Shown in pieces: positions 1-39,745 of a stretch of DNA of 41,863 nucleotides (its first letter is position 1; the number at the start of each line of letters is the position of its first letter). The stretch comes from Candidatus Aenigmarchaeum subterraneum SCGC AAA011-O16 (GTDB taxonomy: Archaea > Aenigmatarchaeota > Aenigmatarchaeia > Aenigmatarchaeales > Aenigmatarchaeaceae), in contig ASMQ01000005.1 in assembly GCA_000405245.1 (NCBI GenBank), forward strand, positions 1-41,863, given 5' to 3'. The notes beneath the pieces are model-generated. The model worked only from the letters and a program-made list of their open reading frames with translations. It ran no database searches and was not told the DNA's origin. The translations under genes and the position numbers were made by a program.

Positions 1-18
1 TGTTTAAAGAAAGAGGTT

Positions 19-758
19 TTAGTAGTTTAAATAAATTCTTAACTTTTTGCTCCACATGAGAGCGCCAGCTACTATCAGAACAATTCCTACAATGATCAAG
101 GGGAACATGTATTGTCCATACGGAGCAGAGGTTGTTTTGAACAAACCAAAAAAATACTTTGCGATGTTGTAAAAGTTCCTGTAATTAATCCAATTACCAC
201 TAAAATAACTCCTACTATTATTAAAGCCTTTTCACGCATCTGTGACAGAAAAGTATTTTTGTCATTCAACAAACTATCAGCATAGCTGTTCCAGCAGTCT
301 TCAGAATATTTGATGCCTGTACCTCCTCGCGAAGCGCAGAGCGGAGGTTGTCTGTCATCTGGCCCTATTTGAAAATCCGGATTCGCGGCATTCCAGCTCT
401 TTAGACCATCATTAATTGGTATTGTTATTGCATTCGGATTAGAAAAGGAACCTGCAGGAATATCAAAAATAAAAACATTGTAAACTCGTTTGCCAGAAGA
501 ATCCGTATGAATGTAATCTAGAGAAAATTTGTCAAAAAATATTCTGATTTTTTCGCTTGCCGGAGCATTCTGATCGATGGGAAGCAGTGATATTTGAGAT
601 CCGCCGGTCGTTCCTGGCGGCGTCTCCTCTTCTGTAGGAACCAAAGTTTCGCCAGCCTTTGTTATTCTTTGAAAAACCGGATTGATAACAACAACGTATA
701 CGGCAACCATTATCACAACCATAGCGATGCTGAATACAACATATTGAAAATCAACCAT
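19..758 (-). CDS. Single-pass Tad/pilus-operon protein, frameshifted (last gene of operon)
   Basis: Unrecognised protein with an N-terminal membrane anchor (residues about 4-25), an outside domain and a C-terminal hydrophobic pair. The uninterrupted frame ends at 96 with an odd hydrophilic tail. A -1 shift in the seven-T run (plus-strand A7 at 148-154) opens a frame that runs to the TAA at 19-21 and adds a loop, a second membrane helix (PLIIVGIVLIVAGAL) and a basic tail, giving about 246 aa. That reading forms a credible helical hairpin, so I take 19-758 as the intended gene. The start is the ATG at 758; an in-frame TTG at 773 is less likely. It shares a DGLKSWN-like segment with the 442-aa gene upstream (DAGLKEWN), suggesting common descent. 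It lies 31 bp after its upstream neighbour. Whether the shift is a base-calling error, a mutation or programmed slippage cannot be told here. Confidence 0.6.
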
Positions 759-789
759 AAGAACTAATTTCAATTTTTACAATATAAAG

Positions 790-2025
790 TTAAGTTGTTG
801 GGTCTGTATCAAAAACTGCTACAACAAAAGACAGATAGTTGAAATTTGAATTGTAATCAAGCCTGACAGCAACATTAATGTATAATTTGCCTTTGCAAAT
901 TTTGTCGGGGCCACAGTAGTATCTTATTTCTCTTTTTTTAAGGGTGGAGTCTCCGGACTTCAAGTCAGCATCGTAAACATCTCTCCATTTAACGTAGTTG
1001 AAATTCAATAGGTTATCTTGGGCAACATCCCAAGTTGGCTGGGAAAAAGTCCAGGGTTCAATAGACCCTAATTTGTTTTCATAAAATCCGAATTTGATAG
1101 CATCGACAATCTGATCAGCCGAATAGGTTTTGGATTTAAGGTTGATTGTATAGGTGTTAAAATAAAACAGATTAACTTTATCCAAAATTTTAGTCGCTTG
1201 CTTTGAAGCATCTCGAATATAGTAAGGAGCGATTCCATAATGCACAATTCCTAACGTTCTTATCGCATCAAAGACATCTAACGTAGAATCAGCCTCTTCC
1301 GAAGCTAAAAATGGTTTGTATGCAATTCGAAGGGTATATTTGCATTTTCCATTGTCCACAGCAGACTTTCCGATATAAAATTTCAATCGTCCAGGATAAA
1401 GACTTCCTGAATGCAAATATTGCGGAGAATAGTACGTGCTAGCTGAGCTGCTTGATGGACTGAAATCTTCTGAAATTGTTTGCTTTCCAGAGATTGTTTC
1501 TGCTTCTGTTTGCAGGTCAGTTCCGTCATAGTAGAGACTAAAAATATCTGATACGGATTTCAAATCAATGTTGCTTAATGCGTCAAAATTACAAACCTTC
1601 TGTCCGATTGTAGGGATTATTTGGTCTGTAAGCTCTTCAGAATTACAATAAATATAAGCACCTGTCTGACCCGGTAAAACAAAAGGCAAATAATTCGGAT
1701 AGTCGCCAAAAGATATTTTATCTATTAGGCATTCTTTTTCATTTTTAATAGAACTTATCAAGCAACTTTTTAATTTTCTGCAGAACCGGGTCTGGTCAGA
1801 AAAGTAATTTGAGTAATCCGACTGTGTCAATAGAGTAGTTGTATCCTGTATCCATGGTCTATAGTCATAGCTTCCAGGTTTCACTACAATATTTTCCGGC
1901 TGTCCTGGAGTTGGTGTTTGCTTTTGGATGCTCGAAAAATAAAATCCTATGACCAATGCAAGAACAAGAAATGCTGCAAATATGGCTACAAGAAGTGCAA
2001 ACCATGGGGGTAAAAGACCTTTCAT
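790..2025 (-). CDS. Large bitopic protein of the pilus-like operon (411 aa)
   Basis: Not a family I can name. An N-terminal membrane segment (residues about 8-31) follows the short leader MKG; the remaining 380 residues should lie outside the cell. The outside part carries conserved cysteines in the pattern CRKLKSC, then CLI, then a later YC and VC. The same pattern recurs in the 442-aa protein encoded just upstream, so the two are tandem paralogues. Its ATG at 2025 lies 2 bp after the upstream stop (TAATTATG), which implies translational coupling. By position in a TadA/TadC operon it could be a minor-pilin-like or tip/anchor component. There is no glutamate at the usual +5 pilin position, so prepilin processing is doubtful. 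Confidence 0.8.
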   Translation of the reverse strand: MKGLLPPWFALLVAIFAAFLVLALVIGFYFSSIQKQTPTPGQPENIVVKPGSYDYRPWIQDTTTLLTQSDYSNYFSDQTRFCRKLKSCLISSIKNEKECLIDKISFGDYPNYLPFVLPGQTGAYIYCNSEELTDQIIPTIGQKVCNFDALSNIDLKSVSDIFSLYYDGTDLQTEAETISGKQTISEDFSPSSSSASTYYSPQYLHSGSLYPGRLKFYIGKSAVDNGKCKYTLRIAYKPFLASEEADSTLDVFDAIRTLGIVHYGIAPYYIRDASKQATKILDKVNLFYFNTYTINLKSKTYSADQIVDAIKFGFYENKLGSIEPWTFSQPTWDVAQDNLLNFNYVKWRDVYDADLKSGDSTLKKREIRYYCGPDKICKGKLYINVAVRLDYNSNFNYLSFVVAVFDTDPTT

Positions 2026-2027
2026 AA

Positions 2028-3356
2028 TTATCCGCTACAAAGAGCAATATGAGGGTAGATTGTTATTTTTCCGTTTTCGCCTTTGGTGTCATATCCTTCA
2101 AGCAAGAACTCAAATCTTACTGTAAACTTCAACGCGTTGAAGTTATTAAAATTTCCAGAGTAATAAACAGTAGGTCTTGGGTTTAGTTGCAATGCCTGGT
2201 TATTAACTTGACAATCTGAAAATGAAATACCGCTGGAGGGTTGGTATGCATCCCATGGAGCATAACTGAAACTTATATTTGCAGCTTTGTTAAATTGTGG
2301 TGATGGAATGGTTACCTTTCCAGTAATAGGGATATCTACTATGGTCGGCGGATTATAAGGGAGATCAGCGATTAATTTACCATTGTCAAAATTTACTTTA
2401 TTCCATTCCTTTAGTCCTGCATCCATTGCCGCAACAACTTCATAAAGATTTGGCCTTTCGTCTGTAGGATTGAACGTTACAGTAAAAGTATCAGGAAAGT
2501 GGCTACTCAATTTTATATTTTTAGGAAAAGTATTTGGGTCTAAATATCCGCAACATTTTAACTCATCTTTTAAAGTGATAAAAACATCAAATATTTTGAA
2601 TGCTCTAGAGCCTTCTGAGCTTGCAAAAGCTCTTTGGACACAAACGAAAAGATTGTAGTTACACGTCCTATCGAAATCATCTCCGGCAGTTGCATTCTGA
2701 ACAATTATTCTAATCTTTCCTCGTTCTCTTTGGCCGGATTGGACGTAAGAGAAGCTAGGATAGAAATAAAAAGTCTCATACACATCCGAATTCGGCGCAT
2801 TTATGTTCATAACAAAATCTTTGTCAAGATTGCAATTGTGGACGTTGGGCTCATAAAAAAAGAATCTGTCTGTGTCAGGTGAATTTGAATTGCTCTCATC
2901 GCCTTCGCGTATTTGCACAAGCAAATTTTTGAATGTACAAATTTTTCTAGTTAGGTCACCAAAAGTTTCAGTCAAATCCTCAGGCGAACAAATCGGATTA
3001 AAATCACTGTCGGCCCTAGAGGTAAACGTTGCAATTGGCGGCTGTGTGATTTCGCAATTGGAGCTTGTAGTAATTCCTTTTTTTATGCAGTTCTTTAAAT
3101 TTTGACAATACGGTCCATCCTGCGAAAAAAAACTTTGAAAGTTAGCGTCTATTTGTGCTCCGGCTGATTTGTCAAGAACAAAAATATCCTTTCTTAAAAC
3201 ATAATTTGGAGGAGGGTTGAAAAGCCTAGGTATCTCACTTGTTGTATTTTCATAAGCAGACTTTGAATAGCTTGCGAGACCCAAAGAAATTGCAATAAAA
3301 ATAGCCATTGCAACAAAAATAATTAGTATCAAAGGCCCTATATCGGCTGCTTTCAT
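2028..3356 (-). CDS. Large bitopic protein of the pilus-like operon (442 aa)
   Basis: Starts with MKA and a long hydrophobic helix (residues about 6-29), followed by about 410 residues predicted outside. It contains CQNLKNC, then NC, IC and ICTF, matching the spacing in the 411-aa gene downstream. A DAGLKEWN segment is also found in related form in the last gene of the operon. Later cysteine pairs (NC, FVC, CCGY) suggest several disulfides, hence an extracytoplasmic location. It begins 38 bp after the stop of the 38-aa peptide gene. Function is unknown; a structural pilus, adhesin or assembly role is inferred only from gene order and topology. Confidence 0.8.
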   Translation of the reverse strand: MKAADIGPLILIIFVAMAIFIAISLGLASYSKSAYENTTSEIPRLFNPPPNYVLRKDIFVLDKSAGAQIDANFQSFFSQDGPYCQNLKNCIKKGITTSSNCEITQPPIATFTSRADSDFNPICSPEDLTETFGDLTRKICTFKNLLVQIREGDESNSNSPDTDRFFFYEPNVHNCNLDKDFVMNINAPNSDVYETFYFYPSFSYVQSGQRERGKIRIIVQNATAGDDFDRTCNYNLFVCVQRAFASSEGSRAFKIFDVFITLKDELKCCGYLDPNTFPKNIKLSSHFPDTFTVTFNPTDERPNLYEVVAAMDAGLKEWNKVNFDNGKLIADLPYNPPTIVDIPITGKVTIPSPQFNKAANISFSYAPWDAYQPSSGISFSDCQVNNQALQLNPRPTVYYSGNFNNFNALKFTVRFEFLLEGYDTKGENGKITIYPHIALCSG

Positions 3357-3394
3357 AATTTTTATTCTGTTTCTTTGATATAAATGTTATAGAA

Positions 3395-3511
3395 TTAGAA
3401 AGGATTGTAGTTCGCATAAGGCTTGAGATAGCCTAGCAAAAAGGCCGCAATCAAAAGCGCAACAACTATAATTACTATTGTTATCAAAATGCTTGCATCA
3501 AAACCTTTCAT
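3395..3511 (-). CDS. 38-aa hydrophobic peptide, possible mini-pilin
   Basis: A short frame of 38 codons whose ATG (3511-3509) overlaps the TGA stop of the TadC-like gene (3513-3511) as TGATG, so translation is probably coupled. The product is MKGFDAS, then about 20 hydrophobic residues (ILITIVIIVVALLIAAFLLG), then an aromatic tail with Tyr28, Tyr32, Tyr35 and Phe38. It fits the hydrophobic-helix-plus-short-tail plan of very short Flp-type pilins, but lacks the Glu5 of classical pilins. The N-terminal MKG recurs in the 411-aa protein of the operon. It could instead be a small stabilising subunit of the platform. Coding status rests on coupling, position and the membrane-helix composition. Confidence 0.6.
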   Translation of the reverse strand: MKGFDASILITIVIIVVALLIAAFLLGYLKPYANYNPF

Positions 3512-5586
3512 CAAACCGCCGGAGTCAATATTTGTGCCAGAGCGCTGCCGAAAACTGAATAGACAGCGTACCATGTAATGAAATATATTATGCTAGATAT
3601 GATTAGTATCTTTCCTATCAGGTCTCTCTCTCCTATCGAATCCTCTCCGTACTGGATCCTGTTCAAGAATATCGCCATGAGTATTGCAGTTTCGACCATG
3701 TAGAGACCGACAGTCAATTGGAATTGCGGGGGACTTATGGGCAAACCTCCTCCAAGCAATGATGGCATTATGAACGCGATTTGAGCTGCGGAATAGCCTC
3801 CACTAGCTCCGGCGATTCCGCCTAAAGTTCCTGTAAGATTCTTAATAATCTGCAAGATTATGACTGCCATTGTCACTGTCACTCCGGAGACAAGTGGAGC
3901 TAGAAACATCGAAAGGAATTTCATGCTAGAAATAGTTTCTCCGAGAATGTCGTCTATTTCCTCTTTTATGTCATGGACATTCTTCAGATATTGTGAAATG
4001 ACAATCATGCTGTCTGCTGCAGCTGCAACACTCTTCTTAGAGGATTCAATAATAGTCTGCATGATAGATTGGATAAGCTTGGAAGGATAGCGCCATATTG
4101 CGCCCACTTCTTTATCAAACAAAGCCTGCTCAAAGGTATAGCCGAATTTCTTCATGTTCAAGCTAACAATATCAAACATCTCCACTATCTTAAGATTCTT
4201 CAATTTTTCTCTTGCCCTGTCGACAGCTATCTCAATAGGAATGCCGCTTGACAGTGTGTTACCAAGCTGGAATAAGGCGACAGAGAATTCATCTTCTATT
4301 CTTTCAATGTCTTTTCGAATTTTCATTTTTTGGTAAGCGTCCAAAAGAGTGTAGACCGCAACACCGAAAGCTAAACCGAAGATGAGAAGAATGGAAGAGT
4401 TGACAGCTGTAAAGATATTCGAGCTATAGTATCCTAAGAAACCAACAGCTATCATTGGCACAGCGACAGCTAAGCCGACCGGCCATAGTGGTATGAATCT
4501 TTTTCCTAAAGCAAACTGTCCTAAGGGCGGAACGTCTTTCAATTGAGAAAGGTCAGGCTGGGAAAAAGTCGGGGGCTTTGTTTGTAGTATGTAGTCTGTA
4601 AAAAAATAGAGAAAGGCGGGCAGAAGTATGTTGTACCCTATGAAAATGAAGGAAGGTTTTATAACATCACCCATGAAAATCAAAACAACAGGGAAAAGAA
4701 CCAGTCCCATGACAGGCAGAAGGACGCCCATTGAATGAATGAGCATGACAGGCATTCTCAAATTGGATGCGTAGTGCTTTGTTCTTTCTTTCGTTCCAGA
4801 CAAAATTAGATTTACAGCTTCAGTATACATTGTGTCTCTCTTGCTTGCTTCGACAGCAGATGTCCTTAGCAAATGCAAAGATTCGGCAAACTCTCTGTTC
4901 TTGTCCTTCCATTTAAAAATATACGAGACTAGAGCTTCGTCGGCAGAAGAATAAACTCCAACTTCAATGTCCCACAAAAGTTTTCTTAAGTCCCATGCCA
5001 AAGGACCTGTCAAATGTTGCGAAGCAAATTTTATTGCTCCTTCCAGATTCGGAGAAGTCCTCATGTAGACCACCATGTAGAGAATGGCGAGAACAGTGTC
5101 CGCAGACATACGCATAGACATTATTCTTTGCTGGTTTGACGGATAATTGTAAAAATAATATGTGACTGCAGTTATGAAACCTATGCTGAAGAGTATGAAG
5201 CCTGTGCCTCCACCAATCACTATTCCTATTAACGCGAAGAAAATGACAATCGAAGTTACAATAACTGTCAAAGACAAAACTCCTCGTGGAGTGGCATGGA
5301 TGTAAGAAGCGACCAATTGAGACTGTATGCCGTCTCCCATTTTCTTCGTTGGTTCAACAGGCAAAATTTTTTCTGCAAAAGCACAAGCCTTTTCATAAAG
5401 AGTTGTCGGTTTTTGTTTTGTCTCTTTTAAAAATTCTTTGTATTCAGAACGATAAGGAATAAATCTCTCCGAAGGGATTTGCGTAACCTGAAGTTCAGTT
5501 AATTTCCTTACCTTTTCAAATTCTTTCTTTTTTGCAGCAGCTCTTATCTCCTCTTCTGTCTCTTTTTTCTTGTCGAAAAAACCCAT
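3511..5586 (-). CDS. tadC: TadC/GspF-type type IV pilus membrane platform protein, duplicated
   Basis: About 691 aa. A charged N-terminal segment (1-95) is followed by membrane helices near 105-145, a cytoplasmic T2SSF-type domain near 160-280, helices near 280-335 and 368-415, a second T2SSF-type domain near 430-560 and final helices near 560-590 and 610-690. Two F domains in one chain match archaeal pilus and archaellum platform proteins (FlaJ/TadC family). The family forms the inner-membrane core that couples the hexameric ATPase to pilin insertion. ATG at 5586 is preferred to the TTG at 5589 because GGATGATT sits upstream. It starts 9 bp after the ATPase stop and ends in the start codon of the 38-aa peptide gene. 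Confidence 0.85.
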   Translation of the reverse strand: MGFFDKKKETEEEIRAAAKKKEFEKVRKLTELQVTQIPSERFIPYRSEYKEFLKETKQKPTTLYEKACAFAEKILPVEPTKKMGDGIQSQLVASYIHATPRGVLSLTVIVTSIVIFFALIGIVIGGGTGFILFSIGFITAVTYYFYNYPSNQQRIMSMRMSADTVLAILYMVVYMRTSPNLEGAIKFASQHLTGPLAWDLRKLLWDIEVGVYSSADEALVSYIFKWKDKNREFAESLHLLRTSAVEASKRDTMYTEAVNLILSGTKERTKHYASNLRMPVMLIHSMGVLLPVMGLVLFPVVLIFMGDVIKPSFIFIGYNILLPAFLYFFTDYILQTKPPTFSQPDLSQLKDVPPLGQFALGKRFIPLWPVGLAVAVPMIAVGFLGYYSSNIFTAVNSSILLIFGLAFGVAVYTLLDAYQKMKIRKDIERIEDEFSVALFQLGNTLSSGIPIEIAVDRAREKLKNLKIVEMFDIVSLNMKKFGYTFEQALFDKEVGAIWRYPSKLIQSIMQTIIESSKKSVAAAADSMIVISQYLKNVHDIKEEIDDILGETISSMKFLSMFLAPLVSGVTVTMAVIILQIIKNLTGTLGGIAGASGGYSAAQIAFIMPSLLGGGLPISPPQFQLTVGLYMVETAILMAIFLNRIQYGEDSIGERDLIGKILIISSIIYFITWYAVYSVFGSALAQILTPAV

Positions 5587-5595
5587 CAAATCATC

Positions 5596-7830
5596 CTAAA
5601 ACTTCTTCGCATAGTCCTTGAACCATTCTAACCAATCATTAAAAACCCTTTCACTATCTACGAATCCTATCTCTGTTCTTATCCTATCGGATATCGAGTG
5701 GAACATTTGATTCATCTTCACAGTCGTTTCAGCTTCAAGCAACTGCTTCTTTCCTGTTTGTTTTGCAATATCAACAATAGTCTGCAGAATTTTTGCCCTC
5801 AATTGAATATTGTCCCATATTCTATCCCATCTTCCTGCCCACCCAGGAACTCTAAGTGCGACCTGATTAAGAATAAAAGATTCTCCGTTCAATAACGTGT
5901 CAGTCGGTTTCAGTCTGTCTTCTGCTGCAGAATATTCCATCAAATTCATGAATCCTCCTTCATCTTGCGGATCTGACTTCCATTGTTTTCTGACTTCTGT
6001 TACTTCAGTTATTCTTCTAAATGTGTGAAGGCCGTCAGAGGTCTTGAGTTTATTTGCAATAACAATCAAATCCGCGGCTTTGAAACTTGTTGGCGGAACA
6101 CCTAAATCGTTCACAATTCTATCAAAAACCCCGTACGCTGATTCTCCGTGAACTGTTCCTGCAACCACATTAGATACTGCTCCGATTCTCATAGCCTCGA
6201 AAAGAGCTCTAGCTTCAGTGCTTCTAACCTCACCCAAAACTAAGACAGAATCTCCTAGACGCAAAGCAGTTCTTATAGCATCATCAGCAGAAAGTTCAGT
6301 CTCTACCTTTGTTATAACTGAACGGGATTTCAGCCTCTCTATATTATAACCGAGATTACGTAAGGCCTCGACAGGAATTTCCAAAGTATCTTCAACAGTA
6401 AGAATTCTATAATAAGGAAGTATCTGTAGCATGAGAGAAGCAAGAAAAGAAGTTTTTCCTGCGCCCCTTGATCCAGCAATCAAAATTGTTCTTCCATGCG
6501 AAGCCAAAAACCAAAGCAGGCCTCCGAACATAGGATCGAAATATTTTTCATTCAAAAACAAAGGAAAAGTCCATGGCCTGAACCTAAACCTTCTTAATGC
6601 AAAAGCTAGGCCTTCCGGAGAGAGTCTAGGATTAATAGCAGCTACTCTTGCCACTCCTCCGGGAACAACTATTTCCGTATCCAAAACAGGATTCGCTTCA
6701 TCCAAGGGTCTTCCTGACAAAAGTTTGAATCTTGTCGCCCATCTGTCTCCATCTGTCTTTGTAGGGACAAGATTTGTTTCACATTCCTCAAACTCTTGGT
6801 GATTGATAAAAATAGGAACTGAACCTAAAGGAGAGTTTATAAAAACATCCTGAATATTTTCATCTGCTAACAAAAGCTCTATTATTCCTAAACCTGCTGT
6901 GTATCTTGTCAAAATCTCAGCAAGCTTGTCTATCTGAACTCCGTTAGCCGTCAAACCCATTTGTTCTGAAACATCCCTGAGAAGATCTTGAGACAAACCT
7001 AAGAAAAGCTCCCTCATCTTATCCTGTTCCTGTATCTCTAATTCTTTCGGTCTCCTTTCTTCAAGGATTCTTCTAGCTGCATCAAGCAGAATATACTCTT
7101 CCTCCTTAAGCTTGAACTCCGGAGGAGTAATGTGGTAAACAGGTCTGACCTTTCCGCTGACTTTGAAGATCTCTACATCAGAATCTCCAATCTTGTATCT
7201 TGCAACCGTTTCGCCCGGAGGAGGCTGTGACAAATATTTCGTATACATGAAGTTGGGTCTTATCGAGGGGTTGAAAAATCTTCTGTAAAGAGTCCTGTCG
7301 CCGATATGATAACCGACAAGGAAAGGTTTTGCTAAATCTATTAATCTGGTCTTCTCCAAAACCTCTTGAACAGGAAAAAGAGCATTCTCTATATAGTATA
7401 CATAGCAGTCAGCATCCTCGCCTCTTTCTGCAATCGTTTTCAAGTGGCGGATTTCTCTTGTCAAAGCAAGATAAGCACCTATAGGATCTTTTCTTAGTTG
7501 AACCATGACAAGATCCCTCAACCAATTATACCATTGCGGAACATACCTGTTGCACCTCCCAACCCCAATATTTTTGACAGAAACAATCTTTTTATCAACA
7601 AGTATCTCTCTTATAGCATCTGCTATTTCTACAAGCATTATTGTCTGGTCTTTATCGTATTCATATTCTCTAGTTTCAGCAAGAACGATTCCAATAACCC
7701 TTCTTTCCGCAAGAAGTTTGTCAACAACTGTCCCCATGACAACATCCGAGTCTTCTATGCTCGGAGAATAGATAGAACCAATAGTGTTAATTCTTAATAC
7801 GCCGTCTTTGACTTCATGTTCGAAAACCAT
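5596..7830 (-). CDS. tadA: TadA/VirB11/PilB-type secretion ATPase
   Basis: About 744 aa from ATG 7830, which follows an AGGTGA ribosome site; a TTG at 7866 is in frame but would be poorer. The C-terminal half carries Walker A GSRGAGKTS (about 453-461), an Asp-box VEDTLEIP (about 479-486), Walker B VLVLGEVR (about 529-536) and His-box AGTVHGES (about 557-564), all hallmarks of the type II/IV secretion ATPase family. The N-terminal roughly 300 residues are long and not recognised; they may dock on the platform or on cytosolic partners. It is first in the six-gene minus-strand operon and should hexamerise under the membrane to drive assembly of a pilus-like filament or another secreted fibre. 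Confidence 0.9.
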   Translation of the reverse strand: MVFEHEVKDGVLRINTIGSIYSPSIEDSDVVMGTVVDKLLAERRVIGIVLAETREYEYDKDQTIMLVEIADAIREILVDKKIVSVKNIGVGRCNRYVPQWYNWLRDLVMVQLRKDPIGAYLALTREIRHLKTIAERGEDADCYVYYIENALFPVQEVLEKTRLIDLAKPFLVGYHIGDRTLYRRFFNPSIRPNFMYTKYLSQPPPGETVARYKIGDSDVEIFKVSGKVRPVYHITPPEFKLKEEEYILLDAARRILEERRPKELEIQEQDKMRELFLGLSQDLLRDVSEQMGLTANGVQIDKLAEILTRYTAGLGIIELLLADENIQDVFINSPLGSVPIFINHQEFEECETNLVPTKTDGDRWATRFKLLSGRPLDEANPVLDTEIVVPGGVARVAAINPRLSPEGLAFALRRFRFRPWTFPLFLNEKYFDPMFGGLLWFLASHGRTILIAGSRGAGKTSFLASLMLQILPYYRILTVEDTLEIPVEALRNLGYNIERLKSRSVITKVETELSADDAIRTALRLGDSVLVLGEVRSTEARALFEAMRIGAVSNVVAGTVHGESAYGVFDRIVNDLGVPPTSFKAADLIVIANKLKTSDGLHTFRRITEVTEVRKQWKSDPQDEGGFMNLMEYSAAEDRLKPTDTLLNGESFILNQVALRVPGWAGRWDRIWDNIQLRAKILQTIVDIAKQTGKKQLLEAETTVKMNQMFHSISDRIRTEIGFVDSERVFNDWLEWFKDYAKKF

Positions 7831-7881: not shown

Positions 7882-7906
7882 TAACAGATATAATATTTGT
7901 GATTTG

Positions 7907-8290
7907 ATGGTTGAAGAAAAAGACGTACCAACTATCCTAAACGAGCTTGTTAGGAGAGCCAACGAATCTACTCGTCGTTTAAGGGCTTTGGAGGAAAGGA
8001 CTCTTCTTATGGAGACGAGATTGAGCTCTATACAAGACTCTATCCTAAGAAATACAGAGGAAACTAGAAAGGGAATAAGCACTTTAATAGAAAAAATAAA
8101 AGATACTGATACCCAGATGCTCAGGATTGACAATGAAATCCTAAGAATTAACAAAAATGCTGACAAATTTGCGAAAAAAACAGAATTAAAGGAAGTGGAA
8201 AACACAATGTCATTTTTCAGTCCTCTTAAAACCGGTTTTGTGACAAAGGAAGAAGTTGAAAGAATGATAATTGAAAGGTCGAGGAGATAA
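7907..8290 (+). CDS. Small coiled-coil protein (127 aa)
   Basis: A charged, all-helical protein with heptad-like Leu/Ile spacing over most of residues 15-100, no membrane segment and no cysteine. Start ATG 7907 fits the TATA box at 7870-7880; a TTG at 7904 is in frame. It ends at 8290, one base before the next ATG at 8292, so the two plus-strand genes form an operon. Divergent to the pilus-like operon, it may be a cytosolic partner of the ATPase in the manner of the coiled-coil FlaC/FlaD subunits of archaella. That is an analogy from position and shape; I see no specific family motif. Confidence 0.7.
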   Translation: MVEEKDVPTILNELVRRANESTRRLRALEERTLLMETRLSSIQDSILRNTEETRKGISTLIEKIKDTDTQMLRIDNEILRINKNADKFAKKTELKEVENTMSFFSPLKTGFVTKEEVERMIIERSRR

Positions 8291-8291
8291 A

Positions 8292-9125
8292 ATGGTTTTT
8301 CCTTTTTCTAAAAAGAAGACTGAGCCTGAAAGAGTTTACATTCCTGCGGATGTTGTTCAAAGATACGCTTCTCAAGGAATGAGCGAGGCTGAAATCGCTT
8401 CTAGATTAGAAAGACAAGGCTTCGCTCCACCGCAAATATCTCAAGCTTTAAGAATTGCATTAAAACAAGAAGTAGCTCCTTCCCCTGAAATGATGGGACC
8501 TACTATTGAAAGGCATCCTCCAGAATTTCGTGCTCCGGAGAGAAGACAGGAAGAATTTAGAAGGCCGCCTGAGAGAGCTCCAGAAGAGTATGGTAATCAA
8601 CCAATAGAGACTCCGACAATGGAAATGGGCCCTGCTCCGCGGAGAGAATTTCCTCAAAGAGAGACTGCGCCGTCCTTAAGCGAGGAGAGGAGTTTTGCTC
8701 CTCCAGAAAGAATCACTATGCCTGGACAGGCAAGACCTAGAATATTTGAAGAAGCTCCTCAACAAATGCCACAACAAAGGGTTCCTGAAATTCCTGAAGC
8801 TGATGTCACGCTAGAAGAAATAATTGAAGGCATAATCGCGGAGAAATGGTACGAATTCGAAGATAGACTAGGCGGATTCGAGAAAAGAGATGTCCAATTG
8901 CAAAATGAAATCGAGGACTTGAGAAAGAAAATTGGCGACGTGGAAAAAATGCAAAAAGAAAGAGAAACTACTCTACTTTCTAAATTCGAATCTTTTGGAG
9001 ATTCTATGGAAGGAATCCAAGGAAGAATAGGTTCTATAGAAAAGGTTTTCAAAGAATTCTTACCAGAATTGACACAAAACATTAGAGTTATGTCTGACTT
9101 AATTGAGACTGCTAAGAAAAAATAA
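8292..9125 (+). CDS. UBA-like/proline-rich/coiled-coil protein, possible motor-associated subunit
   Basis: 277 aa in three parts. Residues about 1-65 contain a small helical segment (VVQRYASQGMSEAEIASRL) resembling a UBA/DUF-type three-helix fold. Residues about 66-165 are a Pro/Glu/Arg-rich linker. Residues about 170-277 form an acidic helix (VTLEEIIEGIIAEKWYEF) and a coiled coil. There is no membrane segment. ATG 8292 follows GAGGAG in the end of the upstream gene; a TTG at 8271 is a poorer start. The tandem arrangement with a second coiled-coil gene next to TadA/TadC suggests a cytosolic scaffold or regulator of the machine. The domain labels are by eye only. Confidence 0.7.
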   Translation: MVFPFSKKKTEPERVYIPADVVQRYASQGMSEAEIASRLERQGFAPPQISQALRIALKQEVAPSPEMMGPTIERHPPEFRAPERRQEEFRRPPERAPEEYGNQPIETPTMEMGPAPRREFPQRETAPSLSEERSFAPPERITMPGQARPRIFEEAPQQMPQQRVPEIPEADVTLEEIIEGIIAEKWYEFEDRLGGFEKRDVQLQNEIEDLRKKIGDVEKMQKERETTLLSKFESFGDSMEGIQGRIGSIEKVFKEFLPELTQNIRVMSDLIETAKKK

Positions 9126-9127
9126 GC

Positions 9128-9739
9128 TTAATCTCCTCTTTCCATTATCATCCAAATAACGGCTAAAGCAATAATTCCAATTATTAGCAATGCAAACGGC
9201 GATAAACCTAGAGAAGGGAGATTGACACTAAAACCGAGAAGGCCTAAGCCACCAGCTCCTACAAAAAGCAGCACCGCAAAAACTATTAAAATTATTGCAA
9301 ACAGCCTAGGGTGTGCTTCAAAAAGTTTACTTTCCACTATGCCACGACCTGTTACTTTGCCCGTTTCTTTGTCACGAGTTTCAACCATATGTCTAAACTT
9401 TAAACCAGTAACTTCTAAGAAAACTAATAATACCAGTATACCTAAAATCAAAAGCAACAAACCACTTGAAAGTCTAGCTAATACAGGCCCTAATAATCCA
9501 GACACAGGAGATAACAGAACCAAAAATGCAACCGCTATGGAAATTATAGTTTGGGACGCTCTTGATTTAGGCACCTGAATCTGAGATAAAATACCTTGGA
9601 CGATTGCAAATGTCAATAACCAAATTAAAATCTGTGTAAATCCTAAATTTTGCAAGAATTCAAAAGTCTGCTCGCTTTGAGCTAACACCGGAACTGCCAA
9701 TAAAAGAAATCCTAAAATCGCTGACATGATTTTTTTCAT
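9128..9739 (-). CDS. Membrane protein with signal peptide, paralogue A (203 aa)
   Basis: A Sec-type signal peptide (MKKIMSAILGFLLLAVPVLAQ) is followed by an outside segment and about four further membrane helices, with a basic cytoplasmic loop between helices carrying EAHPRLFA. The same order and the HPR-x-FA loop occur in the 190-aa protein encoded just upstream, so they are paralogues. The ATG has a GGTGAG ribosome site. It is the last gene of a five-gene operon (11825 to 9128) and converges with the coiled-coil pair with a 2-bp gap. No enzymatic motif is visible; function unknown. Confidence 0.75.
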   Translation of the reverse strand: MKKIMSAILGFLLLAVPVLAQSEQTFEFLQNLGFTQILIWLLTFAIVQGILSQIQVPKSRASQTIISIAVAFLVLLSPVSGLLGPVLARLSSGLLLLILGILVLLVFLEVTGLKFRHMVETRDKETGKVTGRGIVESKLFEAHPRLFAIILIVFAVLLFVGAGGLGLLGFSVNLPSLGLSPFALLIIGIIALAVIWMIMERGD

Positions 9740-9779
9740 TCACTCACCCTCATTAAATCGGAAAGTACAAATATAAACA

Positions 9780-10352
9780 TTACGGTTTCTTCTCCATTGA
9801 CTCCTTGAACATGACCCAGACTGCAACAACAATGATTGCAAGGAAGAATAATATAGCCATGACTGGTGTGCTTATGATAGGTATAGTTATAGGAATTATG
9901 CCTAGACCGCCAAGCCCTATGAATATCAAAACTGCCAGTATAATGATTATTGTGGCAAAAAATCTAGGATGTGCACCAAAGACGTGTTTCTCCCCCACTT
10001 TTGCTCCGCTTATCTCTAAAAATATAAGAAGGAACATTAGTCCGAAGGCTATCACAACTCCGACAACAACCAAATTGGTTAGAAAAGTAGCTGCCTGAGC
10101 TGCTGCTGCTCCGAATAAAACAAGGAAGGCAAGCACAATAGATATGACTCCTCTTGTAGGAATGGATTGCGGAATTCGGACATGTGAGAGGATCCCCCAT
10201 GTCACAGCTAAAGTCAAAAGGAAAAGAAGAATCAGAGTGAATCCATAACCCTGCAAAACCTGAATCATCTGCGTTATAGGATCAGTCTGTGCAAAGACTG
10301 GAACTGAAGTTAGCAAAATCCCTAGCAAAACTGCTAAAATCTTCTCTTTCAT
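9780..10352 (-). CDS. Membrane protein with signal peptide, paralogue B (190 aa)
   Basis: Signal peptide (MKEKILAVLLGILLTSVPVFAQ) followed by four membrane helices and a short cytoplasmic loop GAHPRFFA. Helix 1 region (ILLFLLTLAVTWGILSHV), helix 2 (SIVLAFLVLF) and helix 3 ending in FLEISG match the corresponding stretches of the 203-aa downstream protein (AFLVLLS, FLEVTG). It lies 40 bp upstream of that gene and 32 bp after the 118-aa gene. I read it as a duplicated subunit of a membrane complex that sits beside the pilus-like operon; no catalytic residues are seen. Confidence 0.75.
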   Translation of the reverse strand: MKEKILAVLLGILLTSVPVFAQTDPITQMIQVLQGYGFTLILLFLLTLAVTWGILSHVRIPQSIPTRGVISIVLAFLVLFGAAAAQAATFLTNLVVVGVVIAFGLMFLLIFLEISGAKVGEKHVFGAHPRFFATIIIILAVLIFIGLGGLGIIPITIPIISTPVMAILFFLAIIVVAVWVMFKESMEKKP

Positions 10353-10384
10353 TTTAATCCTATCCTATATTGGTTTGCATGTAT

Positions 10385-10741
10385 TTATTTTTGTCTTTTC
10401 TTTTGTGGGCCCCATCTCTGCATGAAATACTCATAGTGTATGCCATCTAGTCTTCTTCTAATCATCCATATTTCTCTGACCAAAAGAAGTCCTATTATGA
10501 GTATTGTCCATGGCAGTATCAATGTTGCAAAGAATTGTGCTTTAGCTAAAAAGTTCAATTCTCTCACTAAAGCAATGTTCGCTGCTCTCTGAGTCACGTC
10601 TACTGGTGTTTGCGTTGCTAGAACTATTAACGCAATAACTGCAAGTACAACTACTACTATGCTGAATAGAGTCAGCAACAAATCTCTCACAAAGGCTTCT
10701 GCTCTCTCTGCCCTTTCTCTTATGTTTTGCATTCTTCCCAT
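10385..10741 (-). CDS. Two-helix membrane protein (118 aa)
   Basis: An amphipathic basic/acidic N-terminus (RERAERAEAFVRD), membrane helix near residues 22-43, an outside loop, a second helix near 70-87 and a basic tail ending WGPQKKRQK. The start ATG 10741 is 3 bp after the stop of the 167-aa gene (TAAAAGATG), so the genes are co-transcribed. No known family recognised. Its topology (both ends inside, small outside loop) suits a small subunit bridging the polytopic paralogues on each side. Confidence 0.75.
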   Translation of the reverse strand: MGRMQNIRERAERAEAFVRDLLLTLFSIVVVVLAVIALIVLATQTPVDVTQRAANIALVRELNFLAKAQFFATLILPWTILIIGLLLVREIWMIRRRLDGIHYEYFMQRWGPQKKRQK

Positions 10742-10744
10742 CTT

Positions 10745-11248
10745 TTAACCTCCTTTTTGCTGTTGCGGATGCGTTTCGCCCTCAGCTCCAACCTTATAAG
10801 CTGCCCAAAATATTATCAAAATAAAAATGACTACTACAAGAAGGAAAAGATTTTGTGTGCTACCTATAAATGGAACTTGAGTAACAGTATTTGAAAAGAA
10901 ACTTATGCCCAAAGACAAAAGAATGAATAAAACAACTCCAGTGACCATCATTTTGTCTGCGGAACTTCCTGGTCCAACCTCTTTTCTTCTAAGACCGAAG
11001 ACCTCTAAAACAAAAGCTATCAAAAACAAAATAATAAAAAACCATGTTATAGTTGGCAATATAGCATTTAGAGTTGTGACAAAAGGGGAATACGTAGCCG
11101 CAAAAAAGGCTATGACTAAAGCAATTATTAGATTCGCTGCTTTATTTTTTATAGGACTCCCTAATTGCAGTGCTCCGAAAACTATCGCTAATGTAAAGAG
11201 AAAAGGGATTGCGAACGTTGATGAAAAACCAAAGATTATGTCTACCAT
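10745..11248 (-). CDS. Polytopic membrane protein, paralogue C without signal peptide (167 aa)
   Basis: About four membrane helices. The stretch LIIALVIAFF followed by a turn and a long helix ending FVLEVFGL is laid out like AFLVLF...FLEISG in the 190-aa protein and AFLVLLS...FLEVTG in the 203-aa protein. I therefore read it as a third, more divergent copy that has lost the cleaved signal peptide and the HPR loop. It ends in a soluble Gln/Gly tail. The start overlaps the region just after the upstream gene's TGA (TGATTTTATGG). Function unknown; part of the five-gene operon. Confidence 0.72.
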   Translation of the reverse strand: MVDIIFGFSSTFAIPFLFTLAIVFGALQLGSPIKNKAANLIIALVIAFFAATYSPFVTTLNAILPTITWFFIILFLIAFVLEVFGLRRKEVGPGSSADKMMVTGVVLFILLSLGISFFSNTVTQVPFIGSTQNLFLLVVVIFILIIFWAAYKVGAEGETHPQQQKGG

Positions 11249-11252
11249 AAAA

Positions 11253-11825
11253 TCATAAACTCTTTAATTTACTTTCTACCATAACTCTTTGAGCAGTAAA
11301 TTGTCCGATTTGTGCGTATAGGTATTGCTGTTGCGGAGAGTTCGGAGGCTGACCTGCTGCCAATCGTTTTAGTTCTGCAATCTGCTGGTCCAAAGCTTTC
11401 TTTTCATTATAAAGCTCTTCTCGTGCCTTTCCCTTTTCTCCTGCCTTCTCATATATCTTTGACCCTACCTGAAAAATTTCTGTCATTCTTGCCGGATGGA
11501 TTATTCTGCTTCCTATAAAAAATATTGCAGTTATTACGAGCAAAATCTGGAACCAGGTTATAAATATTGGAACTAAGAATTTTCCATACCAGCCTGCGAT
11601 TATTAAAAACAAATATCCTACAATCCCGAGCAGATTTCTAAAGCCCTTATGACCACCAGAAATCAATTGTGCAAAGCTGTATAAAAAAAGTAAAACTATG
11701 ACATGAGGGATTAGTATCAAATAAAGTATTTGATCTTGTAAAGTTGTGTATCTTGTAATAAGTGTCGGGTCAATTTTCAATATTTGTGTGAAAATTAAGT
11801 TAAACAAATCAATGCCGTCTGGCAT
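11253..11825 (-). CDS. Membrane protein with C-terminal coiled coil (190 aa), first gene of five-gene operon
   Basis: N-terminal short segment, three membrane helices near residues 30-105, then a cytoplasmic helical tail (about 110-190) rich in Lys/Glu/Gln that should form a coiled coil. Start ATG 11825 is chosen over the TTG at 11840 because a TATA-like TATTTATATTAG lies at about 11843-11856, predicting a leaderless message. A cytoplasmic coiled coil could contact the soluble coiled-coil proteins encoded at 7907-9125. No family recognised. Confidence 0.72.
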   Translation of the reverse strand: MPDGIDLFNLIFTQILKIDPTLITRYTTLQDQILYLILIPHVIVLLFLYSFAQLISGGHKGFRNLLGIVGYLFLIIAGWYGKFLVPIFITWFQILLVITAIFFIGSRIIHPARMTEIFQVGSKIYEKAGEKGKAREELYNEKKALDQQIAELKRLAAGQPPNSPQQQYLYAQIGQFTAQRVMVESKLKSL

Positions 11826-11885
11826 GGTTAAGATATACAAAATCTAATATAAATAGATTAATTAGTAAACTTGACTTAGAATTTA

Positions 11886-12368: not shown

Positions 12369-13415
12369 TTAGGAATTGATACCATAGGTAAGCCTTGAAA
12401 GGATCTGCAGTTCCATTTTTTTTGTCAAAAACTGTGCCCAATATGATGTAGACATTAAATTTTCCCATGTTGGTCTTCCAAATGTTGTTTCCATAGATTC
12501 GAAACCATAAACTGTATCTATCGCCGTATCTTGATTTGCTAGTTCTTGGGTATAAGCAGCTTCTAAAAATACAGCCGTTTCATGTAATCTTCCAGTGTCA
12601 TCATTAACTTCTATTCCAGCATTTTGTAAAACTCTTGCTTCATTCTCTATCCCCATCCACGTATCTACTATGTTCTCATTATCAGTATTATTTGTTGTAT
12701 CTGCTGCACTCGACAATTCAATTGCCCTCTTCAGAGTATAAGGCATCAAAGCTCCAAAGCCTGATGTAAGTTTATCCCCACTCCAATATCTTTGCATTCT
12801 CCATATAGCGAGAACAGGATAAGGAACTGTAGGAGGAGGATTTGCTTGTAATTCTGTCACTCTATGATTGTAATGTCTTTCTCTTGTGTAGAAGTTTCTT
12901 ACAACTTCTCTTCTGGAATCCTTCATTAAAGATTCATCTATCTCTTTTGAAACTTTTAACCCAACTGCTTTCTTCAGAATTTCGGCTCTTGGGGAACTTT
13001 CGCCCTGTTCTCTCAACCCTCTAGCAATATTTACAACTTTTTGAGCATAAACATTACCAACCGCAAAGTTTCCAACTCTTCTTTCATAACCAGGACCATC
13101 TTGACCATTCAAGAAGGTAGCATGAGGATCTGTACTGTGATAAAATGTGTCCCATATGTCAAGAATATGTGAAGCTCTGAAATAACCTTCTTTAGCAGGA
13201 GACTCAAATTGCATAGTTCTTTGCAAAAAGTCTGGGTCAACGCTTGGGTTTTGCCATAAAACTCTTGCAGAGGTTCTGTAGGCTCCTAAAAGTCTCTCAT
13301 AATAAAACCTAACAACAGAAGCGCTTAATCTAGTACCATCTAAATATCCTTTGACTTCTGTTTTTAAAGCAGGAGTAATTGCAAATTCGTCCACTGGTTG
13401 TCCCCAAGGTGACAT
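12369..13415 (-). CDS. Hypothetical soluble protein (348 aa)
   Basis: A mostly helical, soluble protein rich in Arg, Tyr and Trp (for example VRFYYERLLGAYRTSARVLW) with no membrane helix, no cysteine cluster and no nucleotide-binding loop. I do not recognise a family. The start ATG 13415 is preceded by AGTGATAAA, a plausible ribosome site. It sits between two other unrecognised genes on the same strand (11886-12341 and 13467-14207), with short gaps. The many YERxx and ERHYNHRVTEL-type helices suggest an alpha-solenoid or all-alpha fold, but this is only an impression. Confidence 0.7.
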   Translation of the reverse strand: MSPWGQPVDEFAITPALKTEVKGYLDGTRLSASVVRFYYERLLGAYRTSARVLWQNPSVDPDFLQRTMQFESPAKEGYFRASHILDIWDTFYHSTDPHATFLNGQDGPGYERRVGNFAVGNVYAQKVVNIARGLREQGESSPRAEILKKAVGLKVSKEIDESLMKDSRREVVRNFYTRERHYNHRVTELQANPPPTVPYPVLAIWRMQRYWSGDKLTSGFGALMPYTLKRAIELSSAADTTNNTDNENIVDTWMGIENEARVLQNAGIEVNDDTGRLHETAVFLEAAYTQELANQDTAIDTVYGFESMETTFGRPTWENLMSTSYWAQFLTKKMELQILSRLTYGINS

Positions 13416-13466
13416 TTTATCACTGCTAAATAATTACAACGAAAAGAATTTAAAGATGTAGGTAGC

Positions 13467-14207
13467 CTAAATTCGGCCTCTTAGAGCATCATCGTAAAGC
13501 CAGTGATACATTACAGCGTCAACATCATTTCCTGCTGTAACTCCCGGAGATGAAGCTACATTAGAAAATCCTAGTCTCTCTAGCAAATCATAATAAGACT
13601 TTGAAGCAGGATTTGCTCTCATGTCACGCAGAGCTATGTAATCTGCAAATCTGTTGATTCTCAACATCTCTCTATTACTAGAGTAGCCTCCATCTTGAGG
13701 AACATTGCCTCGAGTACTATGACTGTTTGGTTGCGCTTGTTTTACTGCAATTTCAAAAAATGCATCTAAATGTTTCTCACCCAGACTTGGGAACATGCTT
13801 TTAGCCTCATTTATAATTGTAGCGGCTGTAATAGAGGGCATTTCATAACCATGTGCTAAACCTAATGCGAACACAACAAAAGGATTATAACCTAGAAGAC
13901 CCCCGAAAACATCAAAGTTTTTAGGAATACCATTAAAGTCCCATTTACTTGCAGCTATAACTCGACCGGTTTCAGGGTCCACTTCTAAAGTATCCCCACC
14001 AACATAATCCTGCTCGTCTTTTTCTTTTGTAAGAGGATTAATGTAAGATTCCCAAAGTCTTACAGCATTATAAGAGGTACCAGAAAGAGTTAATTTTCTT
14101 TCTTCTTCATCGGCAGTAGATCTACCATACAAAGCTGCAACTGCTTCTTTTGGCATTCCCCCATGTACATCAGGTAACAAAGCTATTCTTGCTAAAGGGT
14201 GCACCAT
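13467..14207 (-). CDS. Hypothetical soluble protein (246 aa)
   Basis: Unrecognised. N-terminus MVHPLARIALLPDVHGGMPK includes DVHGG, which recalls the metal-site DxHGG of calcineurin-like phosphoesterases, but none of the later GNHE or GH-x-H motifs of that fold follows, so I do not make the assignment. The rest is soluble, with a glycine-rich middle (FGGLLGYNPFVVFALGLAHG). The ATG lies about 20 bp downstream of an inverted repeat and about 60 bp after a TATA element at 14268-14278 (plus coordinates), so it appears to be the first gene of this hypothetical trio. Confidence 0.68.
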   Translation of the reverse strand: MVHPLARIALLPDVHGGMPKEAVAALYGRSTADEEERKLTLSGTSYNAVRLWESYINPLTKEKDEQDYVGGDTLEVDPETGRVIAASKWDFNGIPKNFDVFGGLLGYNPFVVFALGLAHGYEMPSITAATIINEAKSMFPSLGEKHLDAFFEIAVKQAQPNSHSTRGNVPQDGGYSSNREMLRINRFADYIALRDMRANPASKSYYDLLERLGFSNVASSPGVTAGNDVDAVMYHWLYDDALRGRI

Positions 14208-35273: not shown

Positions 35274-35870
35274 ATGGAAATAGACAGAAGGATGATTAAG
35301 GCTTTGGCAGCAGATGCCAGATTAGAAATTTTGAAAGCTTTAAAACAAAGAAGAAAGATGCCATCAGAATTATCTAGAGAACTAGATTTAGCTCCTTCTA
35401 CAATCATAGAGCATTTAAAAATTTTAGAAGAATCCGGATTGGTGGCAAGAAAAGAAACAGGAAGAAAGTGGATATACTATGAATTGACAACCAAAGGAGA
35501 CAGTCTGATAAAGCCGAGGTTGCCTGTTGAATTCGTATTGATACTTTCTTTGGGAGTGCTTCTTATATTTACAGGAGCTGTAAACCTAACCTATACAGAA
35601 TATCAAACCCTTGAAAATACTATTACCAAACAAGTAGAAAAAATTATTCGGGTGCCAGTATCTCAAGGACAGGGCATAGGAGCTACAATGACGCCAAATC
35701 CTGTCATGTATGAAAACAAAACTGTAATCGAGAACGTTACGACAAATGAAGTCACAACTACCCCAATAACAAAAATAAATTATACTTCACTAGCTTTTGT
35801 AATGATTGGTACAGTACTTTTAGTATTTGTTGCAATCAGTAGAAAATTTAAACAGCCTATTTTTTCCTAG
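35274..35870 (+). CDS. ArsR-type winged-helix regulator anchored in the membrane
   Basis: 198 aa. Residues 1-75 are an ArsR/Lrp-like winged helix (LAADARLEILKALKQRRKMP, then SELSRELDLAPSTIIEHLKILEESGLV, then RKWIYYELT). A first membrane helix (about 84-105) leads to an outside loop with several Asn-x-Ser/Thr sequons, and a second helix near 172-192 returns to a short basic tail. The DNA-binding part is therefore cytoplasmic and tethered, a plan known among archaeal regulators. The 3' end overlaps the convergent surface-protein gene by 14 bp. Possible targets are the divergent secreted protein and the surface protein. Confidence 0.78.
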   Translation: MEIDRRMIKALAADARLEILKALKQRRKMPSELSRELDLAPSTIIEHLKILEESGLVARKETGRKWIYYELTTKGDSLIKPRLPVEFVLILSLGVLLIFTGAVNLTYTEYQTLENTITKQVEKIIRVPVSQGQGIGATMTPNPVMYENKTVIENVTTNEVTTTPITKINYTSLAFVMIGTVLLVFVAISRKFKQPIFS

Positions 35871-38041: not shown

Positions 38042-39745
38042 TTATTTTGTAGTTACAGGGTCCGTTCCTTCTTCTTGTCCTTGAATCCTTCGATCTCTTT
38101 TTTCAAAACCCCCTGTACGAGACATCTTCCTAGTCCTAGGGTAGTATTCCAAATCTATATGCCAGCTTTCACCTTTTGTCCACACTGGAACTCCACAATA
38201 TAGTTTTCCCTGGTTGCATTGTGGTTTAATATCCGCAAGACTTCTAGCAATACATGGGGGTCCTAGATATCTTGCTATATCTGGATTAACTTCTGCTACT
38301 TGTGTCAGTTCTTCAAGCGCAACTCTATTAGCTTCTTCCTGAGCCCTTAAACAAGTTCGTTGTTCTTGTCTATGACGGAACCCTCTTAATTGTGTATTGT
38401 TTATGTAACGAAGTGCCTGACCATTCATAAATATACCAGAAACAAACTCCGGATTTTCTCCGTCTTCAACCAAACTAACAGCTATTTCGCAAACTTCTTT
38501 TCCTAAATCATCATAAATCTGTTTAGCTTCTGGGTGTCGTGCTATTAATTCAGGGTATAGGTTATCTGGTGTATCAGTTATTTGATGTTCTACAGGAGGT
38601 CTAGGTCCATAATCTTCTCTGTGCCTTTGTAATTGAGAATCACAGGTATGAGAAACTCTTCGCATAAATCCATAATTAACTAACTCCAATACTTTTGTTA
38701 ATGGATCGTGCAACTCTAAATCTAAAGGATGATTTAAGATAAGATTCTTACCTGGATTCATAACAAGATCTATAGCATCTGTATCAGAAAGATCCTGATT
38801 CATAATAATTCTTCTTACTTCATCTGCAATAAACTGTTCTGCGTTCGGAGTATAAGTGACAAGCTTGCTTCTTCTACCTCCTAAAGTTCCATCAAAATGT
38901 TCATTTGATTTTCGTATTTTTCCAAAATCGATTTTAGGTCTAGCCTTTGTATAAGCGGTTGTGCCTGCTTTCAAAGGTTTTCCACCATTCTCGTCTACTA
39001 GTGCGGATTCTACGTATGCTCTAAAACCAGGCACTTTTTCTTCTATAGCATCCATCGCTTTGCTAGCAACAAGACTCGCTTCCCAAGGCACAGAAGAAGT
39101 TTCTGCAGAATAGTAAAGCCTTAGAATAGTAGTTATATTTGTTGTATAATACATTCCAGCAAGTGCAGCCTTAGGATAAGTGTATCTCCCGATTTCCATT
39201 GCTTTCTTTCCAATCTGTTCTTCATCTTTATACGTTAAATCTTCTGGTCTATCTCTTCCAATATCTATTAAGAAATCCAGAAGCATGCTACTTATTTTTC
39301 TTCCTGTTTCGAATTGTTTTACAAAAAGAGTATCTACTGTTCTTCTATTTTCGGAACTCTCAAAGGGAAATCTCCTTGCTCTGTACTCCACTTCCCCTCC
39401 ACCACTTTTATCTGCCTGTTCTCTATATCTCTGACTTCCCTGACTAGTATTATAGTATTGATGTGTATGTGCAACATCATGGACCCACTGTCTAGAAACA
39501 TTACTAACGCCTAATGTCAAAACCCAATGTTGCCAAGTACTTAAGTGATTAGATTTAAGTGTATAGATTGGGGTGCCTGTGTAATATTTTTTTCTTATTG
39601 TGTCTAATTCTTCAGGTATAGGAGGAAAAGTCCCAGAAGCCGTTTTAGGATAGTAACAGGTTGCAGCAGCACCAGCTGTCAAAGCTATAGGATCATTATA
39701 AGTCACTCCAATAATTTCAATTTGAGGTTCGGGGTCAAGAAGCAT
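38042..39745 (-). CDS. thyX: Tandem ThyX-like (flavin-dependent thymidylate synthase family) protein, 567 aa
   Basis: Two ThyX-like halves. Half 1 (about 5-245) has TWQHWVLTLGVSNVSRQWVH...GSQRY: the GVSR block and the C-terminal part of the ThyX signature (SxRY) are kept, but RHR reads THQ. Half 2 (about 290-490) has VSHTCDSQLQRHRED: RHR is kept but the SxR end is lost; ALRYINNTQLRGFRHRQ...RAQEEANR recalls the ThyX R-x-L-x-x-F-x-x-LR...AQxEIR block. ThyX makes dTMP from dUMP using FAD, folate and NADPH. ATG 39745 has an AGGTG site. Thymidine kinase lies two genes upstream. Activity of such a two-half protein is not shown by the sequence. Confidence 0.6.
   Translation of the reverse strand: MLLDPEPQIEIIGVTYNDPIALTAGAAATCYYPKTASGTFPPIPEELDTIRKKYYTGTPIYTLKSNHLSTWQHWVLTLGVSNVSRQWVHDVAHTHQYYNTSQGSQRYREQADKSGGGEVEYRARRFPFESSENRRTVDTLFVKQFETGRKISSMLLDFLIDIGRDRPEDLTYKDEEQIGKKAMEIGRYTYPKAALAGMYYTTNITTILRLYYSAETSSVPWEASLVASKAMDAIEEKVPGFRAYVESALVDENGGKPLKAGTTAYTKARPKIDFGKIRKSNEHFDGTLGGRRSKLVTYTPNAEQFIADEVRRIIMNQDLSDTDAIDLVMNPGKNLILNHPLDLELHDPLTKVLELVNYGFMRRVSHTCDSQLQRHREDYGPRPPVEHQITDTPDNLYPELIARHPEAKQIYDDLGKEVCEIAVSLVEDGENPEFVSGIFMNGQALRYINNTQLRGFRHRQEQRTCLRAQEEANRVALEELTQVAEVNPDIARYLGPPCIARSLADIKPQCNQGKLYCGVPVWTKGESWHIDLEYYPRTRKMSRTGGFEKRDRRIQGQEEGTDPVTTK

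Follow-up and report, generated by a model that had tools for sequence, protein, structure and literature searches.

Organization of the locus

The window, the whole 41,863-nucleotide stretch of DNA that was analyzed, corresponds to contig C5. The genome it comes from comprises 15 contigs that total 428,886 bases, with an estimated completeness of 42%. Near its left end lies a minus-strand operon that encodes an assembly ATPase, a membrane platform, a 38-aa membrane peptide and large bitopic proteins. Multi-TM genes (9128-11840) and a pair of coiled-coil genes (7904-9125) adjoin the ATPase gene and belong to the same conserved block.

1-244, no strand: chimeric contig end, a copy of C7:19263-19504; outside the operon
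239-758, minus: bitopic protein C, N-terminal part; true C-terminus on C15, bases below about 239 chimeric
790-2025, minus: bitopic pilin-like protein B, 411 aa, leader MKG; paralogue of A, family F15
2028-3356, minus: bitopic pilin-like protein A, 442 aa, leader MKA; Cys-containing paralogous family F15
3395-3511, minus: 38-aa single-TM peptide, start MKG; TGATG overlap, peptide also in related loci
3511-5586, minus: two-domain membrane platform (TadC/FlaJ type); two T2SSF stretches, halves match split platforms
5596-7830, minus: assembly ATPase, VirB11/FlaI/TadA (T2SSE) superfamily; T2SSE, 2oap, Walker A/B and His box
7904-8290, plus: cc1, small coiled-coil protein; opposite strand in 25/31 ATPase loci
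8271-9125, plus: cc2, coiled-coil protein; opposite strand in 23/31 ATPase loci
9128-9739, minus: M1, multi-TM, paralogous family F4; 81 members in 25 loci
9780-10352, minus: M2, multi-TM, family F4
10385-10741, minus: M3, small 2-TM protein; few relatives have it
10745-11248, minus: M4, multi-TM, family F4
11253-11840, minus: M5, multi-TM, about 195 aa, family F7; 17 loci

Three further observations were made in the window. Proteins of 348 and 246 aa (12369-14207) have no Pfam match and no relatives in the neighboring loci examined. A 567-aa protein (38042-39745) has two ThyX (Thy1) stretches and is probably a duplicated or fused ThyX-like protein. A 710-aa surface protein (35857-37989) combines weak Ig-like matches with a Gly-rich linker and a TM segment at the C-terminus, and is a possible S-layer or adhesin protein.

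The operon continues beyond a chimeric contig end

Window positions 1-244 are 99% identical to C7:19263-19504 of the same genome, and positions 239-400 are 100% identical to C15:5101-5262. The first ~240 bases of the window are a chimeric contig end. Because of this, the second TM segment of ORF 96-773, ORF 19-144 and the start coordinate 19 are artifacts, and ORF 19-144 was rejected as an additional micro-peptide. An earlier sequence-only reading of this DNA had described three large single-pass proteins. Those at 2028-3356 and 790-2025 stand, and the third (96-773) is wrong at its C-terminal end, which comes from the chimera.

The third bitopic protein has its real C-terminus on C15 (5,431 bases). 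Beyond it C15 encodes peptides of 40, 54, 79 and 70 aa in turn, a 727-aa protein (MKGLTFLQ) and then a large protein that runs on into C7, the end of which overlaps its later part. C7 continues on one strand with proteins of 96 (Cys-rich), 105, 100, 1015, 128, 157, 180, 349, 119, 130 and 121 aa, a run interrupted by a single 332-aa gene on the opposite strand. The run ends at a 96-aa protein that we take, by the look of its sequence alone, to be of an Alba-like family. Thus the operon runs through C15 into C7 for about 16 further genes, and the window holds only its beginning, about 10 of about 30 genes. The minus-strand operon first described as having six genes is indeed tight; its six-gene limit is an artifact of the contig.

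The other end of C15 (1-236) has a short 99.6% match to C7 (about 20.35-20.59 kb). The chimeric matches at the ends of C5 and C15 make amplification or assembly chimerism likely in this genome.

Assembly ATPase

The ATPase is a 744-aa protein with an ATG start and an extra N-terminal region of about 240 aa. It matches Pfam T2SSE (E=9.9e-17; 61.1 bits, cut-off 24.9) and possesses a Walker A motif (GSRGAGKT), a Walker B motif (LVLGEVR) and a His box, which bears out its first assignment as a TadA/VirB11-type ATPase. The solved structure nearest to it is 2oap, which is an archaeal secretion ATPase (E=1.3e-31, residues 241-641). The top NCBIfam match is the archaellum motor FlaI (E=3e-38), at 131.8 bits against a curated cut-off of 550. 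The curated NCBIfam cut-offs were likewise missed for TadA (117 bits vs 373), VirB11 (57.9 bits vs 249.95) and the bindosome ATPase BasE. Three other secretion ATPases of the same genome outscore it on FlaI (294-418 bits). By that test the operon ATPase belongs to neither an archaellum nor a Tad system.

Membrane platform

Both halves of the platform are contained in one 691-aa gene. As a single sequence it matches Pfam T2SSF in two stretches at 24.6 bits, just below the cut-off of 25.2, and it has no match in PDB. Its family was compared by hhalign with the separate platform proteins of three other pilus loci of the genome. The N-terminal half matched the first split platform protein with 97.7% probability, and the C-terminal half matched the first or second with 95.6-95.9% probability. 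These results uphold a duplicated TadC-type platform. The suggestion that the duplication is unusual was rejected, because archaeal platforms usually have two T2SSF domains, and it is the split platform that marks Tad and Epd systems (PMC6668835).

The three reference loci (L101, L102 and L104, on contigs C4, C2 and C9) have their platforms split in two genes and encode recognizable pilins. The C9 locus also has a KaiC-like ATPase, with a PRK13764-type PIN/KH ATPase just upstream. A stand-alone FlaI-like secretion ATPase with no adjoining platform or pilins is found on contig C12 (L103:8783-10456).

Micro-peptides and large bitopic proteins

Downstream of the platform lie genes for peptides of 38-79 aa with one TM segment and for single-pass proteins that range from about 100 to about 1000 aa. 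The first of them is the 38-aa hydrophobic peptide (3395-3511), present as first described and with a single TM segment, whose start shares one base with the platform stop codon (TGATG). The peptide is a candidate headless micro-pilin. In related loci the gene next to the platform is a single-TM peptide of 36-61 aa in about 18/24 comparable cases, as expected from the order of ATPase, platform and tiny TM peptide that had been predicted for a neighborhood survey.

In the window, the large bitopic proteins are members of family F15, which is present in 2-4 copies per locus in six of the sampled loci and has invariant Cys in its alignments (A2/A4). Protein A was modeled with a 33-residue helix at the N-terminus and a head that is partly beta-rich; confidence was low (mean pLDDT 64), and the model gave no significant match to PDB folds. 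This predicted architecture is compatible with a pilin and is not proof of one. The subunit families have no convincing model in Pfam or NCBIfam, and no subunit matched a pilin family in either collection; the NCBIfam scan covered the proteins of the window's locus.

Leader peptides and prepilin peptidase

Two arguments had been raised against a pilus, that the operon has no prepilin peptidase and that its subunits lack Glu5. Both proved misleading. The genome does encode an A24 prepilin peptidase, outside the operon, at C3:43528-43866 (E=3.1e-12; Pfam, 43.5 bits), and one was found in 49/59 relatives and in 28/30 good relatives. An acidic +5 residue is present in only some archaeal pilins (PMC4371748); in most of them a Glu5 is not to be expected.

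For processing, archaeal prepilins need a charged -2 residue followed by glycine, alanine or serine at -1 (PMC4371748), and many of the operon subunits have such a pair. For the related loci, [KR]G was counted within the first eight residues of all N-terminal-TM proteins downstream of the platform, with random stretches of the same genomes as background. 122/272 downstream proteins (45%) possess the motif, compared with 1/42 (2%) in the random regions (odds ratio 33, P=8e-9), a background of only 42 proteins. The sole background protein with the motif, MRGVSALVAVMLLLIISVG, is itself pilin-like in look. Because the count used a simple purpose-built gene caller and a hydropathy rule, the start sites are approximate. 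A stricter FlaFind-like rule, which approximates the published motif, separated the two sets more weakly and in the same direction (34% vs 12%, P=0.004). The leader claim therefore holds firmly for the set as a whole but not for every member. [KR]G is missing from over half of the downstream TM proteins and occurs in 30% of the tiny ones.

In the downstream set the leader is usually three or four residues long, hydrophobicity is strong from residue +7 on, and an acidic +5 residue is not conserved (13%). Six orthologues of the Cys-rich protein of about 95 aa were aligned. All six have M1 and K2, and position 3 is occupied by G or A throughout, in contrast to the variable TM helix. The classical pilins of the same genome begin with the same short MKG leader, and one of them (MKGISPLVASVLLIA) matches Pfam Pilin_N. 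MKGISPLVASVLLIAITM, a pilin from the three other pilus-type loci of the genome, scores above the Pilin_N cut-off.

Conservation in Aenigmatarchaeota

Conservation was surveyed within Aenigmatarchaeota. The platform gene is present in 57/59 nearest relatives, which a whole-genome search put in a single family, order and class, and in 139/145 genomes across the phylum (E<=1e-50). The latter include all 39 good genomes, which are at least 90% complete with at most 5% contamination. Gene order was examined in forty further stretches of 9-20 kb. The arrangement recurs in dozens of genomes with platforms of about 30-59% identity and is therefore not due to chance. The repeated block consists of M5-M4-(M3)-M2-M1, cc2 and cc1 on the opposite strand, the ATPase, the platform, and a run of N-terminal-TM proteins. 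Among the 31 loci with a strong ATPase match, the platform lies within four genes after the ATPase in 29, and at least two M genes lie upstream on the same strand in 19. M-like genes are in the opposite orientation in some other loci. Gene order is thus broadly conserved in the phylum.

In two of the related loci the platform gene is directly preceded by a very large gene, of 1934 aa in L056 and 2870 aa in L065. The one in L056 stands between the ATPase and the platform.

Multi-TM proteins

The paralogous M proteins upstream of the ATPase have about five TM segments. Their main family counts 81 members across 25 loci, commonly with three to five in a locus. Only scattered Pfam hits were obtained, each to one or two of 56 members, and a family profile found nothing convincing among PDB sequences. 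A structure model (mean pLDDT 81, pTM 0.47) had no significant match to PDB folds. Homology of the M proteins to the platform was considered and rejected (hhalign, 0.3%), and no counterpart was identified in known pilus loci.

Discussion

All type IV filaments need four components: pilin-like subunits, a peptidase, an ATPase and a platform (PMC10191384). Because all four are encoded in this genome, a type IV filament machine is favored. In our reading, the operon encodes the core and the initial portion of a pilus-like archaeal type IV filament machine, the subtype being one that is conserved in Aenigmatarchaeota as a phylum; we give this reading a probability of about 0.75.

A hexameric VirB11/FlaI-type ATPase, assigned by homology like the platform, would drive the two-domain TadC/FlaJ platform. 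The subunits would be membrane proteins that begin with a very short leader of class-III type (M-K-G or M-x-K-G), which the PibD/FlaK-type peptidase encoded elsewhere in the genome is expected to cut. Their N-terminal helices may then serve to draw them out of the membrane into a filament. The single-helix peptides of 38-79 aa could be headless pilins that form or space the filament core, and the Cys-containing proteins of 400-1000 aa could be surface-exposed adhesive or specificity subunits. The M proteins and the coiled-coil pair would be accessory membrane and cytoplasmic parts. A more far-reaching version is a tentative possibility. Headless one-helix pilins and giant Cys-containing pilins, assembled together on a base that includes the paralogous proteins of about five TM segments, might constitute a new, phylum-wide class of type IV filament machine, a symbiont attachment or transfer organelle with no counterpart among characterized pili.

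The sequence-only reading had proposed a distinct filament or secretion machine. The system is distinct in that its gene order is conserved and its families are unmatched; the arguments that it is not a pilus were wrong or weak. A secretion or conduit machine would work by short pseudopilus-like strokes of the small helices, driven by the ATPase and platform, with the four or five M proteins as a channel and the bitopic proteins as a fixed extracellular scaffold. Such a machine would account for several features. The M paralogues adjoin the ATPase in most loci and are unexplained by a pilus, tiny headless helices fit poorly in a conventional decorated pilus, and many subunits are very large and single-pass. 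However, no cargo, channel fold or outer gate was recognized in profile, Pfam or fold comparisons, and the [KR]G leaders together with the peptidase indicate ordinary pilin-like assembly. We regard a conduit as rather unlikely and keep it in view mainly because of the M proteins.

It is less probable still that the downstream proteins are an unprocessed single-pass surface complex beside a pilus motor, with [KR]G as a mere positive-inside N-terminus. In favor of this reading, about half of the subunits are without the motif. Yet [KR]G is almost missing from other N-terminal-TM proteins of the same genomes, and lysine followed by G or A is kept in orthologues while neighboring residues drift. 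A degenerate archaellum, as the "FlaI, FlaJ" annotation in published Aenigmarchaeota genomes suggests, has next to no likelihood, because despite FlaI being the best NCBIfam match and a FlaG/FlaI/FlaJ subset occurring in most Aenigmarchaeota MAGs (Li et al. 2021, PMC8407114), the FlaI score lies far under its cut-off and below those of the other ATPases of the genome.

The likeness to the archaellum is confined to the FlaI-type ATPase and FlaJ-type platform. FlaH, FlaF/FlaG and archaellins had no match in Pfam or NCBIfam among the locus proteins of the window, in agreement with the first impression that no archaellum set is present. Although the platform is in all 39 good genomes of the phylum, the 2021 study reported type IV pili only in Aenigmarchaeota of hot habitats (PMC8407114). 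The likely cause is that the subunits have no matches and that the motor is taken for part of an archaellum.

The type IV filament reading was compared with other described systems. Like the operon, Tad (T4c/Flp) and EppA-dependent archaeal pili combine very small pilins with very different minor subunits and have an ATPase-platform operon. Unlike the operon, with its single platform gene, Tad and Epd systems have the platform split into two genes (PMC6668835), and the TadA cut-off was missed by the operon ATPase. Makarova, Koonin and Albers (2016, PMC4858521) describe ten organization models of archaeal type IV pili and, in the text, record nanoarchaeal ATPases with no recognizable cognate pilins. 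As described there, archaeal type IV pili share with the operon the ATPase, platform, A24 peptidase, class-III-type leaders, Cys-rich or large minor subunits, and accessory membrane or coiled-coil proteins. Examples in that text are the Thermoproteales systems, which have membrane proteins and large subunits rich in Cys, and subclade 4F, which includes a coiled-coil protein. The operon differs in that it alone encodes about 20 pilin-like subunits, several of them headless helices of 38-79 aa, and in its paralogous M proteins, and the text of that paper gives no DPANN-type model of this kind. The operon is best read as a type IV filament subtype that is lacking from the named lists and has a very large, partly headless set of pilin-like subunits together with a multi-TM module that a pilus does not explain.

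The idea is not wholly new, since Makarova, Wolf and Koonin (2019, PMC6393860, Fig. 2A) pointed to DPANN islands that combine a FlaI-type ATPase, TadC and dark-matter proteins. By its text description such an island resembles the operon. The unrecognizable signal-peptide proteins of these islands were predicted to be diverse pilins. The account is one sentence and a figure; its text contains neither a survey of gene order nor leader statistics, and does not treat a peptidase link, micro-peptides or an M module. The system is thus partly anticipated. The present analysis adds the full operon of this genome, its phylum-wide presence, the enrichment of leaders, the micro-peptides, and the module of M and coiled-coil proteins.

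Type IV pili are described as driving episymbiosis in Saccharibacteria (PMC12206443). From such roles in episymbionts and the phylum-wide presence of the platform, attachment to partner or host cells appears to be the most likely use of the machine.

The helix-only subunits pose a structural question, whether a type IV filament with headless pilins is possible. Cultivated DPANN archaea depend on contact with host cells. To our knowledge, the parts that make this contact are mostly unidentified, and the machine proposed here offers defined candidates for host attachment.
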